A DNA stretch of 64,000 nt from Methylomonas sp. LL1 (GTDB taxonomy: Bacteria; Pseudomonadota; Gammaproteobacteria; Methylococcales; Methylomonadaceae): positions 3,100,001 through 3,164,000 of the forward strand of contig NZ_CP064653.1 of the NCBI RefSeq assembly GCF_015711015.1. The letters are read 5' to 3'. Both the position numbers and the translations under genes were made by a program. How positions within the stretch are numbered: the stretch's first letter is position 1; each line of letters starts with the position of its first letter. Positions 45,051 to 62,287 of this stretch are shown here, one piece after another. The notes under the pieces are model-generated. The model had not been told where the DNA came from and searched no databases. It saw only the letters and a program-made list of their open reading frames with translations.

Positions 45051-45269
45051 ATTTAGTGGGAGAGTGCGGCTTTTTCAAGACCGCGGCTCGCAAGGGGCCT
45101 TGTAGGGAGTTTCGCCTGGAACAAATTGGAAGGCTTTGAATTTCATCGGGGCCGGCCGATTGAGGCGGAAAGGGAACGAAATTTCTCCCGATGTCAATTG
45201 CGCTTGGGTTTGACGCGTCCGGTTATGAAAGGAGCGTCGGTTTCGATTTACGGACAACATAAGGTCTAT

Positions 45270-45950
45270 ATGAAATATCAAACAATTTCAGCCGCGCTTG
45301 CCTTGCTGGTGAACGTATCTTCCGCATCGGCGAGTTTAATTGCCGGCGATCTTCCCGCGCGTGCGGGCGAGGATGGCCTAGGCATCGACTACGCCTTTCA
45401 AATGTATCTCGATCCCTCTTCCGGATTGGTAACAGAAAACCAGGCCGGGCCAGTAGGTTCGAAAGCTTGGTCAGACCCCTCCAATATCAACGGGTCCAAC
45501 GGCATACCGTTGGGCTGGACCCATACCTCGGTTTGGGGATACATCCGTTTGCAAACCGATGCCAATGTTCAAATCAGCTTGTCTCCAAACGGCGGCGACC
45601 TAGTGCCGGCCTGGTCCTTATGGCGCGGCGCCGAGAACGATGGCGGAAACTTCCATACCTATTATCAAGACGCCGTGCCGGCATGGGTAGACGCCGCCGG
45701 CTTTGCTCACATTGACCACGTCACTACCGGACCCGGACCTTATTCCGGACAAGCCGCGACATTATCGTTGTTCCTCACGGCTGGCGAATACACCATCGCA
45801 ATCGGCGGAAACGACAACAACAGCGCCGGACATCAAGCCAATTATTCGTTTTCGGTGAACGCATCTCCGGTCCCCGTGCCTAGCGCAATTTACCTATTCG
45901 CCAGCACGTTAGCCGGTTTTCTCGCGGTCCGCCGTAAACACGCCATCTAA
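45270..45950 (+). CDS. PEP-CTERM-type exported protein
   Basis: A 226-residue secreted protein. The signal is MKYQTISAALALLVNVSSASA. The C-terminus is a sorting tail: VPVPSAIYLFAST, a hydrophobic helix (ASTLAGFLAV) and basic RRKHAI, the exosortase target form with VP-P in place of PEP. The body is beta-rich with Gly, Asn and Tyr (GEYTIAIGGNDNNSAGHQAN is like a C-terminal pre-peptidase or DVUA0089-type fold) and contains WSLWRGAENDGG. Likely a surface or matrix protein. AAGG is 5 bases before the ATG. It is followed after 24 bases by another PEP-CTERM gene. Confidence 0.82.
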   Translation: MKYQTISAALALLVNVSSASASLIAGDLPARAGEDGLGIDYAFQMYLDPSSGLVTENQAGPVGSKAWSDPSNINGSNGIPLGWTHTSVWGYIRLQTDANVQISLSPNGGDLVPAWSLWRGAENDGGNFHTYYQDAVPAWVDAAGFAHIDHVTTGPGPYSGQAATLSLFLTAGEYTIAIGGNDNNSAGHQANYSFSVNASPVPVPSAIYLFASTLAGFLAVRRKHAI

Positions 45951-45974
45951 ATTTGGAATTCGAGAATCAACATC

Positions 45975-47138
45975 ATGAAAAATAACAAAAAGGCTATTCG
46001 CGGTTTACTGATGGTATCCGTCTCTGCGGTATTTCTAGGCGCTGGCCAAGCAAACTCGGCCACATTTTCCGGATTAGGCGCTTTCGCCAGCAACGCTACC
46101 GGCATTTCCGCTGACGGTTCAACCGTGATCGGTTACGGACCCAACGCCCTCGGCACCGAGGCGTTCCGATGGACTCAAAGTGGCGGTTTACAATCCCTCG
46201 GCGTCATTAGCAATGGCGTAGACCATAACAGTTACGCCGGCGCCGTGTCTGCCGACGGTTCGGTGATTGCAGGTTACAGCACGACAACGTCGGGAGCCTT
46301 TAACGCTTTCCGGTGGACTCAGGCGACCGGCATGGTTTCGCTGGGAGGCGTTGGCGGCAACGATGGGTTTACGCGAGCCGACGACATGAGTGACGACGGC
46401 TCCACTATCGTCGGCTACAGCCAAACAGCGGCCGCGCCGAACGGTGCCGGTTATCGATGGAATCAAGCTAACGGAATCGAGAATATCGGAACGTTGTCCG
46501 CGCCTTACAACGTTTGGAGCTGGGCGCGCGGTATCAGCACCGATGGCTCTACCATCGTCGGACAAAGCAATAGCTTTAGCAGCGGCCATGCGTTTCGCTG
46601 GTCAGAATCCGGCGGTTTTGTCGACTTAGGTGTTGCGGCTGGAGCAAGCAGTTCCGGCGCAACGGATATCGCCAACAACGGTACGATTGTCGGTGGCGGC
46701 AAGGTCGGTACTTCCAACCTAGCCATGATCCGGACCGAGGTCGGCGGCTGGGAAATTCTTGGAACCTTGGCCGGCTACAACAATAGCAGCGAAGCAGGCA
46801 TTTCCGCCGATGGCTCTCTTGTTTACGGAATGGTATTCAATCTACCGACCACGTCCACGCCGTTTACGCAAGAGGGCATGGTATGGGATAGTAACCACGG
46901 CATGCGTTTTGCTGATGACTGGCTGACCCAAGACCATGGTCTCGATTTGTCTGATTGGACGATTCAATACGTCAGCGGCATCTCAGACGACGGCTTAGTA
47001 GCCGTCGGTTATGGTTTACATAACGGTAACGTGGAGGCATGGGTTGCCGATCTAAGACCGGTTCCGATTCCAGGCGCAGTTTGGTTATTCGGTTCAGCAA
47101 TAGCCGGTTTAAGCGTTGTCGGCAGAAAGCGCAAATAG
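45975..47138 (+). CDS. HAF-repeat PEP-CTERM exported protein
   Basis: A 387-residue secreted protein made of about seven repeats of roughly 45 residues, each with a turn such as ISADGSTVIGYG, VSADGSVIAGYS, MSDDGSTIVGYS, ISTDGSTIVGQS or ISADGSLVYGM, followed by AFRWTQxxG. This is the HAF extracellular repeat pattern, expected to form a beta-propeller-like domain. A signal peptide ends near ANSA. The C-terminal tail VPIPGAVWLFGSAIAGL plus RKRK is an exosortase target. It is co-transcribed with the 45270 gene and shares its sorting route. Exosortase itself is outside the window. Confidence 0.88.
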   Translation: MKNNKKAIRGLLMVSVSAVFLGAGQANSATFSGLGAFASNATGISADGSTVIGYGPNALGTEAFRWTQSGGLQSLGVISNGVDHNSYAGAVSADGSVIAGYSTTTSGAFNAFRWTQATGMVSLGGVGGNDGFTRADDMSDDGSTIVGYSQTAAAPNGAGYRWNQANGIENIGTLSAPYNVWSWARGISTDGSTIVGQSNSFSSGHAFRWSESGGFVDLGVAAGASSSGATDIANNGTIVGGGKVGTSNLAMIRTEVGGWEILGTLAGYNNSSEAGISADGSLVYGMVFNLPTTSTPFTQEGMVWDSNHGMRFADDWLTQDHGLDLSDWTIQYVSGISDDGLVAVGYGLHNGNVEAWVADLRPVPIPGAVWLFGSAIAGLSVVGRKRK

Positions 47139-56330: not shown

Positions 56331-56699
56331 TTATAGAGATTTATAAAGCGCTAATGCCTTATTCAATTCTTCGGTCGCCCTACTGACGTTTCCGTTTTTC
56401 GAAAGAATCTGGCCTTGGATCAGTATGGAATGAGCTTTTTTCGCAACATCCGAATTTCCAGCAATCAATTCAGAAGCCGTTCTGGCGGCTTTCAAATGAA
56501 CTTGGGCGGCGGAGAAATCGCTTTTACTAACTTCAACCAAGGCTTTCTCGATATGCGAAATAACTTCACTTGTGCTAGAGGTTGATGAAGTCGCCGCCGC
56601 CGGAGCTTGAGCTTCTTCTTCCGCAAATACGCTAACGCTTGCCAAACTGAAGGACATGGCCAGGGACACTGTAAACGCTGCTTTTGTAAAAATATTCAT
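56331..56699 (-). CDS. small periplasmic helical protein, relative of the 8722 gene product
   Basis: A 122-residue exported protein. The signal peptide ends near VFA-E (residue 26), then an Ala/Ser/Thr linker (APAAATSSTSSTSEV) and a helical body (SEVISHIEKALVEVSKSDF, AAQVHLKAARTASELIAG, ATEELNKALALYKSL). Body layout, SEVI start and closing leucine-rich helix resemble the protein at 8722-9108, about 47 kb away, so the two are probably related. No cysteine or metal site. Function unknown; the helix pattern recalls TPR-like or four-helix bundles. Confidence 0.72.
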   Translation of the reverse strand: MNIFTKAAFTVSLAMSFSLASVSVFAEEEAQAPAAATSSTSSTSEVISHIEKALVEVSKSDFSAAQVHLKAARTASELIAGNSDVAKKAHSILIQGQILSKNGNVSRATEELNKALALYKSL

Positions 56700-57003: not shown

Positions 57004-59172
57004 TTACTCCACCGTCCCCTGTAAACGGGTAATCCAGGCATGTTTGGCCAACGGATCGACATTAAACGCCAATGCCCAAGGCTTGTGCAACAAGCCTTCC
57101 TCGCCGGAAGCATTTGGATTGAGCTGGCGTTTCTGCACAAAATCCACCATGCGCTTCAGATTATAAATCAGCAAAACCCGATTGCACTCTCCGCCGCGAT
57201 AGATCAGATAGCCAACGTTGTCTTCAGCCAGCGCCGGATTTCTGTCGATCAGCGCCGTCAACGCACTATCGCCGTCTTGAGCCAGACTTTTCAACACCGA
57301 ATCCTTATGCCGGGTCATCATGGTTTTATAATGTCGCGCCAGGCCGCCGCCAATTTGCTGTTGCTGCAGATATTCGATGTCTTCGTCGTACAACAAAAAA
57401 CTTTCCGCAACCAGATAATGTTGGTCGCGTTCGCCGTCGTTGGCAAACAACGACAACTTGGCCAGCGCACTATCTTGCAGGGCTAGTAGGAAGGAGTGCG
57501 GCGAGCGGATGTGTTTATCGATAGTCACCACCCAAGGCAGGGCGCGGCCGGTAGCGGCAAAACGCGACTTGACGCTACCGATGACGCCGGAACGCGATAA
57601 TTCCTGTTCCCGGCCGGCTGGCTTGACTAAAAACGCGTCGACGGCGGTTATCTGGGTGTGGAAGCCGGCCGCCCGAAATTGATTGATCACGGTGGAATAG
57701 CGTGGTTGATAAGGAATCCCGGTACCGTCGTACAAAATATTGATCCGGCTTTCCCGTGCATGCTCGGCCACCAGATCGCGCAAACGGTTGGCAAAGGGTT
57801 CCACATAGACGTAATCGTCGCTATGGTGATCGGCCGCGGTCAGCAGGCAATACAAATCGCTCAGTTTGCGGAATTCATCCAGCGAGGCTATCACAAAATT
57901 ATCACCGCATTGGGCTTGGGCGATTTCCTCCACTGCGGTTTTGCCGGCCCCCGCGCCGCCCATGCACATAAAGAGCTTGGGTTGCTCGACCGGCGTTTTG
58001 CCGTTAAAAATCTTGTCCAACGCAACTTGCAAGGCGCGATTAATCTTGGCCAGACGTTGGTAGGCAATTTCCACCGTACGCCGCAAACGCGGCTCGCTCC
58101 GGGTGGCCGCCAGCATTTTCCTCTTTAAAGACGGATTATCGGCCAAGGCAAATACATTGGCTTGTTCGCCGACGAATTGCTTGATCAAGTCCAGTAATTC
58201 GGCATGACTTGGCGGACGCAGGCTGGTCAAAATATTGATATCCAGGCAAAACAACGGCGCCACGCCATCTTCTCGTATCGGAATCGCATCGATCGCTGTT
58301 TTACCGGGCAAACGCAAATCCTCGGTACCCGGCAGGAAGCCGATGACCTGTTCGGACACGCTCAGCGGATTATCGACGAAATGTTGGCCGGTGATGAATT
58401 GATCGACCTGAATAGTTTGCAGCGGCACCAAGCCACCATTCACGGTGACCAGACACTCGATACCGTCGGCGGTGGTATGCGACAAAAACGGGATGCCTTG
58501 TAAAAAACGTTTGTTTTCCGGCCATTTGCCATAGCCATTGGCCTTGTTCGCCAGATTTTTGCTACGGGTCGGATCCAGCGCATGCCTGAATGCCTTACCG
58601 AGAGCGGCATGGGTACTGGCCGGATCATGCAGTGCCACGGCATCCGCCGGCGCCAGACGGCGAAAGTCGATGCCTTGTTCATAGACCGCTTTAAAAGCCG
58701 GCAAATTGCCCAGCGCCGTGATAAAAAAATCCAGCGTGATGCGATTGCCATAAGAGTAAGGCCGAATACAGCGTAACTCTTGATAGAAGCCGGCCAAGCG
58801 TTCGGCAATATCCTGGCTTTGAATCACGAAACCGTTATTGTCGAAGATCGCGCTATCTTGATTGCTGTCGCCATTCAACACCAGCCGCTCGATGGCAATC
58901 CGGAACCGCTTGCGCTGCTCCTTATCCAACATGGTTCCCGGCCTATGGTTGACGGTAATCTGTTCTCTCCAGTCGTTGAACATCTCTCTGTGTATGCGCG
59001 AAAACAGACCGGTCATATAGGTAACGCGCTTGGTTTGGTCGTGGGAGACCGTGGCCTCCAATTCCTGTAATAATTTTGACAGAAGCCGGCTACCTTGGGC
59101 GATCGCCAGAGCGGTGCGCAACCGCTTCAATTGCCGGTAAGCCGGGATGTTGCGGTGGGGATTTTGCTGCAT
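57004..59172 (-). CDS. large protein with Fic-like region and zeta-toxin-like kinase
   Basis: A 722-residue soluble protein. Residues about 85-180 look like a Fic fold: ERLAGFYQELRCIRPYSYGN then R144 ITLDFF and GIDFRRL correspond to 'l..lh..l..iHPF.eGNgR...f' and 'IDW..l', but the catalytic His of HPFxxGNxR is Arg (RPYSYGNR, 137-144). Residues about 398-560 match zeta-toxin kinases: Walker A GGAGAGKT (405-412), ASLDEFRKL with the base Asp (D432), YVEPFANRL and ILYDGTGIPY. Zeta toxins phosphorylate UDP-N-acetylglucosamine. The middle (180-395) and C-terminus (560-722) are unassigned. GGAAGG precedes the ATG. No antitoxin (epsilon-like) or Fic inhibitor gene adjoins. Toxin activity is unproven. 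Confidence 0.75.
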   Translation of the reverse strand: MQQNPHRNIPAYRQLKRLRTALAIAQGSRLLSKLLQELEATVSHDQTKRVTYMTGLFSRIHREMFNDWREQITVNHRPGTMLDKEQRKRFRIAIERLVLNGDSNQDSAIFDNNGFVIQSQDIAERLAGFYQELRCIRPYSYGNRITLDFFITALGNLPAFKAVYEQGIDFRRLAPADAVALHDPASTHAALGKAFRHALDPTRSKNLANKANGYGKWPENKRFLQGIPFLSHTTADGIECLVTVNGGLVPLQTIQVDQFITGQHFVDNPLSVSEQVIGFLPGTEDLRLPGKTAIDAIPIREDGVAPLFCLDINILTSLRPPSHAELLDLIKQFVGEQANVFALADNPSLKRKMLAATRSEPRLRRTVEIAYQRLAKINRALQVALDKIFNGKTPVEQPKLFMCMGGAGAGKTAVEEIAQAQCGDNFVIASLDEFRKLSDLYCLLTAADHHSDDYVYVEPFANRLRDLVAEHARESRINILYDGTGIPYQPRYSTVINQFRAAGFHTQITAVDAFLVKPAGREQELSRSGVIGSVKSRFAATGRALPWVVTIDKHIRSPHSFLLALQDSALAKLSLFANDGERDQHYLVAESFLLYDEDIEYLQQQQIGGGLARHYKTMMTRHKDSVLKSLAQDGDSALTALIDRNPALAEDNVGYLIYRGGECNRVLLIYNLKRMVDFVQKRQLNPNASGEEGLLHKPWALAFNVDPLAKHAWITRLQGTVE

Positions 59173-59518: not shown

Positions 59519-62287
59519 ATGTCCGACATTTCCGCAAACAAACTGATTCTGGTCGACGGCTCGTCGTTTTTATTCCGCGCCTTTCATGCCGTTCCGCCAC
59601 TAAGCAATGCCCAGGGCCAGCCTACCAATGCGATTTACGGCGTGTCCAACATGCTGCGAAAGTTGATCAACGATTACGACACACCTTATGTCACGGTGGT
59701 GTTCGACGCGCCGGGCAAGACCTTTCGGCATGATTTATACGATCAGTACAAAGCACATCGGCCGCCGATGCCGGACGATTTGCGGGTACAAATTCAGCCG
59801 CTGCATGAATTGATCAAATCATTGGGTTTGCCTTTGATCATCGAACATGGCGTCGAAGCCGACGATGTATTGGGCAGCCTGGCGCAAAATGCCGCCCGGC
59901 AAGGCTTTGACGTGGTCATTTCCACCGGCGACAAGGACATGGCACAACTGGTGACCGAGCGGATCACGCTGGAAAACTCGATGACCAATACTCGGATGGA
60001 TATTGCCGGCGTCGAGGAGAAGTTCGGCGTCAAGCCCGAGCAGATCATCGATTACCTGGCCTTGATGGGCGATGCGGTGGACAACATCCCCGGCGTGCCG
60101 AAAGTCGGTCCGAAAACCGCAGCCAAATGGCTGCAACAATATGGCACATTGGACAATCTGATCGCGCATGCCGGCGAGATCAAGGGCAAGATCGGCGATA
60201 ACCTGCGTGAAGCTTTGCCGCAATTGCCGTTATCGCGGGAATTGACCACCATCAAATGCGACGTGGCCTTGCATTACAGCCTGGAGGAGTTGAAGCGCAA
60301 GCAGCCGGATATGGCCGCCTTGAAACAGCAACTGGGCACACTGGGCTTCAGCAGCTGGCTGAAGACCTTGAACGGCGAGCAAGCATCAACACTTTCTCCC
60401 ACCGAGGAACAAAGTAAAGCGGCGGCGAGCAAACAGGAAACGGAGCAACGTAGGCATCAAGAGCCGATTGCTTGGTTAGCCCGTGACTATCAAACCCTTC
60501 TCGACCAGGCCGATTTCGATCGCTGGCTGGACAAACTAAGACAAGCCGAGCTATTCGCTTTCGATACCGAAACCACCAGCCTGAATTACAGCAATGCCGA
60601 AATCGTCGGCGTTTCGTTCGCGGTGGCAGCCGGACAAGCAGCTTATCTGCCGCTGGCTCACGACTATCCGGATGCACCGGCGCAACTCGATCGGCAAAGC
60701 GTGCTGGACGCGTTAAAGCCGCTGCTGGAAGATGCCGAAAAACCCAAACTGGGCCAGAATCTGAAATACGATGCCCATATTCTGGCCAATCACGGCATCA
60801 AACTGCGCGGCATTCAACACGACACCATGCTGGAATCCTATGTGTTGAACAGCACGGCGACCAAACACAACATGGACGACCTGGCCAAGCATTATCTGGG
60901 CGCCGACACCATACATTTCGAGGACGTGGCCGGCAAGGGCGCCAAGCAGATCGGTTTCCAGGAAGTGGCTGTCGAACAAGCCGCGGAATATGCCGCCGAG
61001 GATGCCGATATTACGCTACGCTTGCATCAGACCCTGTCGGAACAATTGAGGCAACATCCGCGCCTGTGGGCCTTGTATAACGAGATCGAAGTGCCGCTGA
61101 TCGATGTGTTGGTACGAATCGAGGAAAATGGCGTACTGATCGACAGCGCGATGCTGGACCAGCAAAGTCTTGAGCTGGCCAATCGCATGATAGGCATAGA
61201 GCAGCAGGCGCATGATCTGGCCGGCTCGGCTTTCAATCTGGGTTCGCCCAAACAGATACAGGAGATTTTATACGACAGGCTGAATCTGCCGGTGCTGAAG
61301 AAAACCCCCAAGGGCCAGCCCTCCACCGACGAATCGGTATTACAGGAGCTGGCGCTGGATTATGCCTTGCCTAGGCTGATCCTGGAATTTCGAGGCATGA
61401 GCAAGCTGAAATCCACCTACACCGACAAACTGCCGCAGCAAATCAATCCCAAAACCGGCCGGGTGCATACCTCCTATCATCAGGCGGTGGCGGCCACCGG
61501 CCGCTTATCCTCGTCCGACCCTAACCTACAGAACATCCCGATCCGTAGCGAGGAAGGCCGCAAGATACGTCAAGCCTTTATCGCTCCGCCCGGCTACAAA
61601 ATTGTTGCCGCCGACTATTCGCAGATCGAACTGCGCATCATGGCTCATTTATCCGGCGATGCCGGTTTATTGGCGGCATTTTCGCAGGGTCTGGATGTAC
61701 ACAGCGCCACTGCGGCGGAAGTGTTCGAAGTGGAGGTTGGCCAAGTTACTCACGAACTGCGCCGTTCGGCCAAGGCCATTAATTTCGGTTTGATTTACGG
61801 CATGTCGGCCTTTGGCTTGGCCCAACAATTGGGCTTGTCGCGTAACCAGGCACAAGCCTATATTGATCTATACTTTAGCCGCTACCCCGGCGTGAAACAA
61901 TATATGGATAACATCCGCGAACAAGCCAAACAACTTGGATACGTTGAAACGCTTTTCGGCCGGCGCCTATATTTGCCGGAGATTAATGCCCGCAATCCCG
62001 CCATGCGCCAGTATGCCGAACGCACCGCGATCAACGCGCCGATGCAGGGCACGGCGGCCGACATCATCAAGCGAGCGATGATAGGCTGCGACGCCTGGAT
62101 TCGGAACAGCGGCGCCGATGTCAAGATGATCATGCAAGTGCATGACGAGTTAGTGTTCGAGGTGGCGGAGCCGCAATTACAGGACAACACGGAAACGATA
62201 CGTGACATTATGTCCGGCGCAGCCGAGTTGCGGGTGCCTCTGCTGGTGGAAGCCGGTTGCGGCGAGAATTGGGATCAAGCGCATTAA
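59519..62287 (+). CDS. polA: DNA polymerase I
   Basis: A 922-residue repair polymerase with three domains. The 5'-3' nuclease (about 1-290) has LVDGSSFLFRAFHA and GVEADDVLG. The 3'-5' proofreading domain (about 320-510) keeps FDTETTSL with both acidic residues, so proofreading is likely active. The polymerase domain has motif A DYSQIELR, motif B RRSAKAINFGLIYG and motif C QVHDELVFEV. A linker of Ser, Lys and Gln (about 285-310) separates the first two domains. Length matches E. coli (928). Confidence 0.98.
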   Translation: MSDISANKLILVDGSSFLFRAFHAVPPLSNAQGQPTNAIYGVSNMLRKLINDYDTPYVTVVFDAPGKTFRHDLYDQYKAHRPPMPDDLRVQIQPLHELIKSLGLPLIIEHGVEADDVLGSLAQNAARQGFDVVISTGDKDMAQLVTERITLENSMTNTRMDIAGVEEKFGVKPEQIIDYLALMGDAVDNIPGVPKVGPKTAAKWLQQYGTLDNLIAHAGEIKGKIGDNLREALPQLPLSRELTTIKCDVALHYSLEELKRKQPDMAALKQQLGTLGFSSWLKTLNGEQASTLSPTEEQSKAAASKQETEQRRHQEPIAWLARDYQTLLDQADFDRWLDKLRQAELFAFDTETTSLNYSNAEIVGVSFAVAAGQAAYLPLAHDYPDAPAQLDRQSVLDALKPLLEDAEKPKLGQNLKYDAHILANHGIKLRGIQHDTMLESYVLNSTATKHNMDDLAKHYLGADTIHFEDVAGKGAKQIGFQEVAVEQAAEYAAEDADITLRLHQTLSEQLRQHPRLWALYNEIEVPLIDVLVRIEENGVLIDSAMLDQQSLELANRMIGIEQQAHDLAGSAFNLGSPKQIQEILYDRLNLPVLKKTPKGQPSTDESVLQELALDYALPRLILEFRGMSKLKSTYTDKLPQQINPKTGRVHTSYHQAVAATGRLSSSDPNLQNIPIRSEEGRKIRQAFIAPPGYKIVAADYSQIELRIMAHLSGDAGLLAAFSQGLDVHSATAAEVFEVEVGQVTHELRRSAKAINFGLIYGMSAFGLAQQLGLSRNQAQAYIDLYFSRYPGVKQYMDNIREQAKQLGYVETLFGRRLYLPEINARNPAMRQYAERTAINAPMQGTAADIIKRAMIGCDAWIRNSGADVKMIMQVHDELVFEVAEPQLQDNTETIRDIMSGAAELRVPLLVEAGCGENWDQAH

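Follow-up and report, generated by a model that had tools for sequence, protein, structure and literature searches.

A chromosomal fusion of a rewritten Fic-fold domain with a zeta-like kinase in Methylomonas and its relatives

The gene at positions 57004 to 59172 (minus strand) of the 64,000-nucleotide stretch of Methylomonas sp. LL1 DNA analysed here (contig NZ_CP064653.1, positions 3,100,001 to 3,164,000; hereafter the window) encodes a protein of 722 amino acids in which a domain of the Fic fold, lacking the four residues on which the known transfer chemistry depends, is fused to a zeta-toxin-like kinase whose core seems intact. An intact kinase core beside lost Fic chemistry points to a likely split into a kinase and a non-catalytic regulator. 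The reading that we prefer, and that we hold to be as probable as all others together, is that of a free-standing chromosomal fusion in which the non-catalytic Fic domain gates or aims a zeta-type small-molecule kinase in cis. The open reading frame (ORF) begins with ATG, preceded by an AGGAAGG ribosome site six bases upstream, and its translation contains RPYSYGNR at residues 137 to 144 and D432, as given in an initial annotation of the window that named no strand, and GGAGAGKT at residues 405 to 412, a stretch that the annotation counted to the kinase site.

The canonical Fic motif is HxFx(D/E)GNGRxxR, of which the His, the Asp or Glu and both Arg are described as essential in the available parts of PMC7842960. 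Laid over this motif without gaps, residues 137 to 148 of the window protein (RPYSYGNRITLD; 58729 to 58764, minus strand, coordinates checked) read R137 P Y S Y141 G142 N143 R144 I145 T L D148, so that R137 replaces the His, Y141 the Asp or Glu, I145 the first Arg and D148 the second, while G142 and N143 are retained. We counted these positions in 192 aligned rows, namely the 120 best proteins and 80 loci kept from a genome scan minus eight identical rows, with some rows being one protein with an alternative start. Position 137 is Arg in 186 rows, Lys in 5, Gly in 1 and never His, position 141 is Tyr in 187 and Phe in 5, position 145 is aliphatic in most (I in 100, L in 81, M in 5, V in 3, and T, S and F in 1 each), and position 148 is Asp in 190 and Asn in 2; G142, N143 and R144 are present in 192, 191 and 187 rows, respectively. 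Not a single row keeps the essential His, Asp/Glu or either Arg, and we therefore regard the domain as a Fic-fold relative rather than a Fic AMP-transferase; the loss of the catalytic His, proposed initially for the window protein, extends to every row examined. An intact HPFxxGNGR is likewise absent from the 192 rows and from two rare distant relatives of the Fic part, the fragments P0166 (ca. 40% identity, 266 residues, marked partial) and P0172 (ca. 35%, 268 residues), in which the rewriting is weaker (E137 and S144 in P0166; A142, S143, H144 and E148 in P0172). Across the 192 rows, mean conservation is 0.786 over residues 41 to 200 compared with 0.839 over residues 391 to 560, and the ratio of nonsynonymous to synonymous change (pN/pS) of the Fic part is 0.11 to 0.28 in comparisons with ten loci, in which synonymous change is close to saturation. 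Purifying selection acts on the Fic part and the replacements are nearly fixed: the site has been rewritten and is not in decay.

The assignment to the Fic fold rests on the predicted model, in which residues 1 to 204 (58561 to 59172, minus strand) adopt the Fido fold of the PF02661 family and the motif loop directly precedes a helix at residues 143 to 155. Fold extent and loop placement are those of the Fic domains of FicT, VbhT and Bep proteins (5jff, 3shg and 4py3), from which the window protein differs in the replacement of all four essential motif positions and in its fused kinase. The point on which the initial annotation had staked its proposal, that the N-terminal part folds as Fic, thus came out in its favour, but the profile searches that it suggested were divided. 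The PADLOC Fic-type profile PDC-S04 matches the N-terminal part (best E 1.9e-5 among 80 members), whereas the Pfam cut-off for PF02661 is not reached: the window protein gives no Fic match at all, and one of 30 members gives one at E 0.1. Since PDC-S04 fits ordinary Fic proteins in general, we take its match to indicate Fic and not defence; when whole genomes were scanned with it at E 0.001, its sole match in the own genome was an ordinary Fic gene, and the fusion gene was not listed.

Other searches with the N-terminal part gave little. A 380-residue profile run with hmmsearch against the PDB found no Fic protein, its one match being an unrelated chain (E 0.22). A 156-residue profile found four chains up to E 10, the best again unrelated (E 0.21) and the other three being Fic chains in register with the motif (E 0.39, 0.44 and 0.94), which is suggestive only. 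With hhalign, nothing but the motif aligned to 30 Fic stretches taken from PF02661 loci (P 0.079). A comparison to 18 Fic rows from PDC-S04 loci scored 33.1, while none of 100 column-shuffled controls exceeded 22.1; we give this score little weight because the one reversed control reached 28.6, and one of the 18 rows is a spurious reverse-frame ORF while 3 of 20 PDC-S04 loci yielded no ORF with the motif. Foldseek alone returned nothing at E <=0.001 when given the N-terminal model, 4m16 coming closest (E 0.034). PHROGs had no match to this part of the window protein, and none of its families matched more than 5 of 80 members, the matches being weak. An ATPase-Toprim_I-B match in 10 of 80 members (best E 0.0067) was taken as chance, and the JGI label "fido" on some relatives was not used because Pfam gave no Fic for three such fragments tested. 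The own genome carries three other Fic loci above the Pfam cut-off (G000:C2 600233, 2591138 and 3322321), those at 600233 and 3322321 with an intact HPFxDGNGR.

The kinase core (residues 391 to 558; 57499 to 58002, minus strand) is matched by PF06414 (zeta toxin) with 60.5 bits against a cut-off of 22.3, and this model is found in 30 of 30 members at E <=1 (best 2.2e-20). Its Walker A motif GGAGAGKT (57937 to 57960) places K411 at zeta K46, and D432 (57877 to 57879) stands at zeta D67; the roles of both zeta residues are described in PMC6356619, and their equivalents are kept in all 192 rows, in keeping with the intact kinase site proposed earlier. D482, G483 and T484 (57721 to 57729; coordinates checked, as for D432) align with zeta E116, G117 and T118, with D482 in 192 and T484 in 190 of the 192 rows, so that E116 is uniformly replaced by Asp, a conservative change. 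As to the residues for substrate binding on which the earlier proposal also hinged, the equivalent of E116 is Asp, and R158 and R171 lie beyond the ends of the alignments, with the near-invariant R521, R527, R537 and R543 as candidates for them. The protein shares with the zeta and PezT toxins (PF06414; 1gvn, 2p5t) the kinase fold, Walker A motif and equivalents of D67 and T118, but differs from them in D482 for E116, in having mostly Asp (D466) for E100, in its length of 722 residues and in having no conserved antitoxin gene. Two proteins deposited on their own, P0177 (420 residues, Methylomarinum sp. Ch1-1) and P0197 (448 residues), are kinase parts in which the N-terminal part is mostly missing, and they may be split genes or truncated records.

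The absence of a recognisable antitoxin gene, noted initially for the window alone, holds across 80 loci, none of the neighbouring families being widely conserved. ORF families of at least 80 residues recur in at most 10 of these loci and small ORFs (30 to 150 residues) within 600 bases in at most 8, or 6 on the gene's own strand, so that no adjacent antitoxin of a type II operon such as epsilon/zeta or PezAT is discernible in them. The commonest upstream neighbour is found in 10 of 78 loci and the commonest downstream one in 5 of 72, same-strand neighbours lie within 60 bases at 3 loci upstream and 7 downstream, and flanking DNA is alike upstream in four Methylomonas loci only and downstream in none.

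Relatives are concentrated in one order, which to judge by their names would be the methane-oxidising Methylococcales. A protein search gave 660 matches at E 0.001 (7996 candidates scored), and the best 120 have 98 to 100% query coverage and 66 to 100% identity; those with names are Methylomonas, Methylomarinum, Methylovulum or other Methylococcaceae or Methylococcales, and a single one is just "Gammaproteobacteria bacterium". GTDB species genomes yielded 141 relatives when scanned, and the 80 kept are titled as Methylococcales and genera thereof, as a methane-oxidising endosymbiont, or as bins called no more than "proteobacterium" or "Gammaproteobacteria". Within the order, 142 of 251 genomes, 125 of 217 good genomes and 30 of 48 genera have a match, which is single in 135 of the 142 and in the own genome; each of the remaining seven has two rows that are gene pieces (in G248 one row is a full copy, the other a short piece), and internal stops flagged in some matches proved in three checked cases to be the normal final stop. 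The other 92 good genomes have no match, nor do two Methylomonas genomes of 99 to 100% completeness and one contig each (G078 and G115), which indicates that the gene can be lost. Matches were found in 2 of 369 genomes at class level (the own and one of its family; the same two with a more diverse N-terminal profile) and in 1 of 398, the own one, at phylum level. No match was found among 72,556 plasmid records, and two sets of pattern matches to viral contigs, 27 and 16 in number, contained none that was confirmed, which speaks against a mobile or viral origin. Wide chromosomal presence in one order without plasmid or viral copies leans toward a resident kinase over a mobile toxin.

On this basis, we picture a free-standing chromosomal protein inherited within Methylococcales, whose C-terminal kinase would most likely phosphorylate a nucleotide sugar or similar metabolite, and whose Fic domain would most likely use the conserved RP(F/Y)xYGNRxTLD surface to bind a ligand or partner and thereby gate or aim the kinase in cis; such control would make a separate antitoxin gene unnecessary. 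By analogy, the fusion may combine what two known systems do. One is EzeT of E. coli, a solitary zeta toxin with a cis-acting N-terminal antitoxin domain of ca. 82 residues (Rocker and Meinhart 2015, as reported in the accessible portions of PMC4803016 and PMC4826407), which is likewise a single chromosomal polypeptide with a C-terminal zeta kinase, an extra N-terminal domain and no separate antitoxin gene. The N-terminal part of the fusion is different in comprising more than 300 residues, partly of Fic fold, and the restraint demonstrated for EzeT is for the fusion a conjecture. The other is the use of a Fic fold without Fic chemistry by BepC and AvrB (PMC7842960), though these are host-targeted effectors, unlike the fusion protein, and BepC retains the His and both Arg. 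Two points weigh against the preferred reading: overexpression of a solitary zeta homologue was reportedly not lethal (cited in PMC4803016), and the regulatory element could lie in the middle region, or in helices spanning residues 322 to 356, instead of in the Fic part. The middle region with beta strands in the models (residues 205 to 320; 58213 to 58560, minus strand) lies outside most fold-comparison ranges and has a mean conservation of 0.77 over residues 201 to 320. The helical stretch that follows (residues 321 to 390; 58003 to 58212, minus strand; mean conservation 0.664) is, with residues 561 to 640, the least conserved part of the protein, and in every one of 10 comparisons its pN/pS exceeds the value for the kinase core.

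Both parts are known folds, and what appears to be new is that they are combined, that the Fic site is rewritten so uniformly and that the combination is spread through the order. The available parts of PMC4803016, PMC4826407 and PMC7842960 cover uncharacterised zeta homologues of more than 500 residues and Fic domains within multi-domain proteins without naming a Fic-zeta fusion. Searches limited to open-licence papers listed nothing on the fusion, the rewriting or its spread, and among the papers listed for Fic with zeta toxin, or for zeta toxin with Methylococcales, titles and abstract starts describe no such fusion. If the preferred reading is true, a toxin fold has been put to new use within the same chain, as the regulator built into another enzyme of toxin type. 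The family is also tractable for asking what solitary zeta kinases do beyond toxin-antitoxin operons.

The alternative that fares best, which we hold to be half as likely as the preferred reading, is a housekeeping kinase, neither toxic nor inhibited, with the Fic fold serving only as a scaffold or as an arm that recruits substrate, as in BepC. It agrees with the wide and mostly single-copy presence in the order, the lack of plasmid and viral copies and recurrent partner genes, a GC content of 0.538 compared with 0.514 for the window and the reported non-lethality mentioned above, but the genomes without a match suggest that the gene is dispensable, and the motif surface seems more uniform than a plain scaffold requires. 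A bolder version of the preferred reading, in which the Fic fold with its RP(F/Y)xYGNRxTLD residues has become a conserved sensor of nucleotide or phosphate that gates the attached zeta kinase, one toxin fold thus regulating another in a metabolic switch that occurs across the order, we offer as a tentative and rather unlikely idea. We consider it improbable that the protein is an EzeT-like toxin that restrains itself through an N-terminal cis antitoxin and whose kinase is freed by damage, as a switch in stress or phage defence: the domain order of EzeT and the match to PDC-S04, a candidate defence model, would speak for it, but that profile recognises Fic proteins generally, mobile copies were not found, and the antitoxin part of EzeT is far shorter. 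That the Fic domain has remained an enzyme, R137, Y141, N143, R144 and D148 forming a new active site for a new reaction, would fit the near invariance of these residues yet seems very doubtful, as the residues of the known mechanism are all gone except Gly-Asn and neither P0166 nor P0172 retains the set. Decay of the Fic part after fusion could account for the lost catalytic residues but is barely conceivable given a conservation near that of the kinase and a pN/pS well below 1. The earlier interpretation, which had weighed a self-restrained toxin against a housekeeping kinase, is thus supported in part, namely in the Fic fold, the lost His, the intact kinase core and the lack of a widely conserved partner gene.

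Next to the gene lies polA (59519 to 62287, plus strand; named from sequence), as had been described; it is the divergent upstream neighbour, and an ORF of 122 residues (56331 to 56699, minus strand) lies 304 bases off on the opposite side. Relatives are deposited as "zeta toxin family protein", "toxin", "fido" or "hypothetical protein", with one fragment called "phage pi2 protein 07", and none of these names conveys the presence of both parts. Elsewhere in the window, two adjacent ORFs at 45126 to 47138 have tails (VPVPSAIYLFASTLAGFLAVRRK... and VPIPGAVWLFGSAIAGLSVVGRK...) that by eye resemble sorting signals, presumably of the PEP-CTERM type, and the second of them contains repeated "ADGST"-like units.
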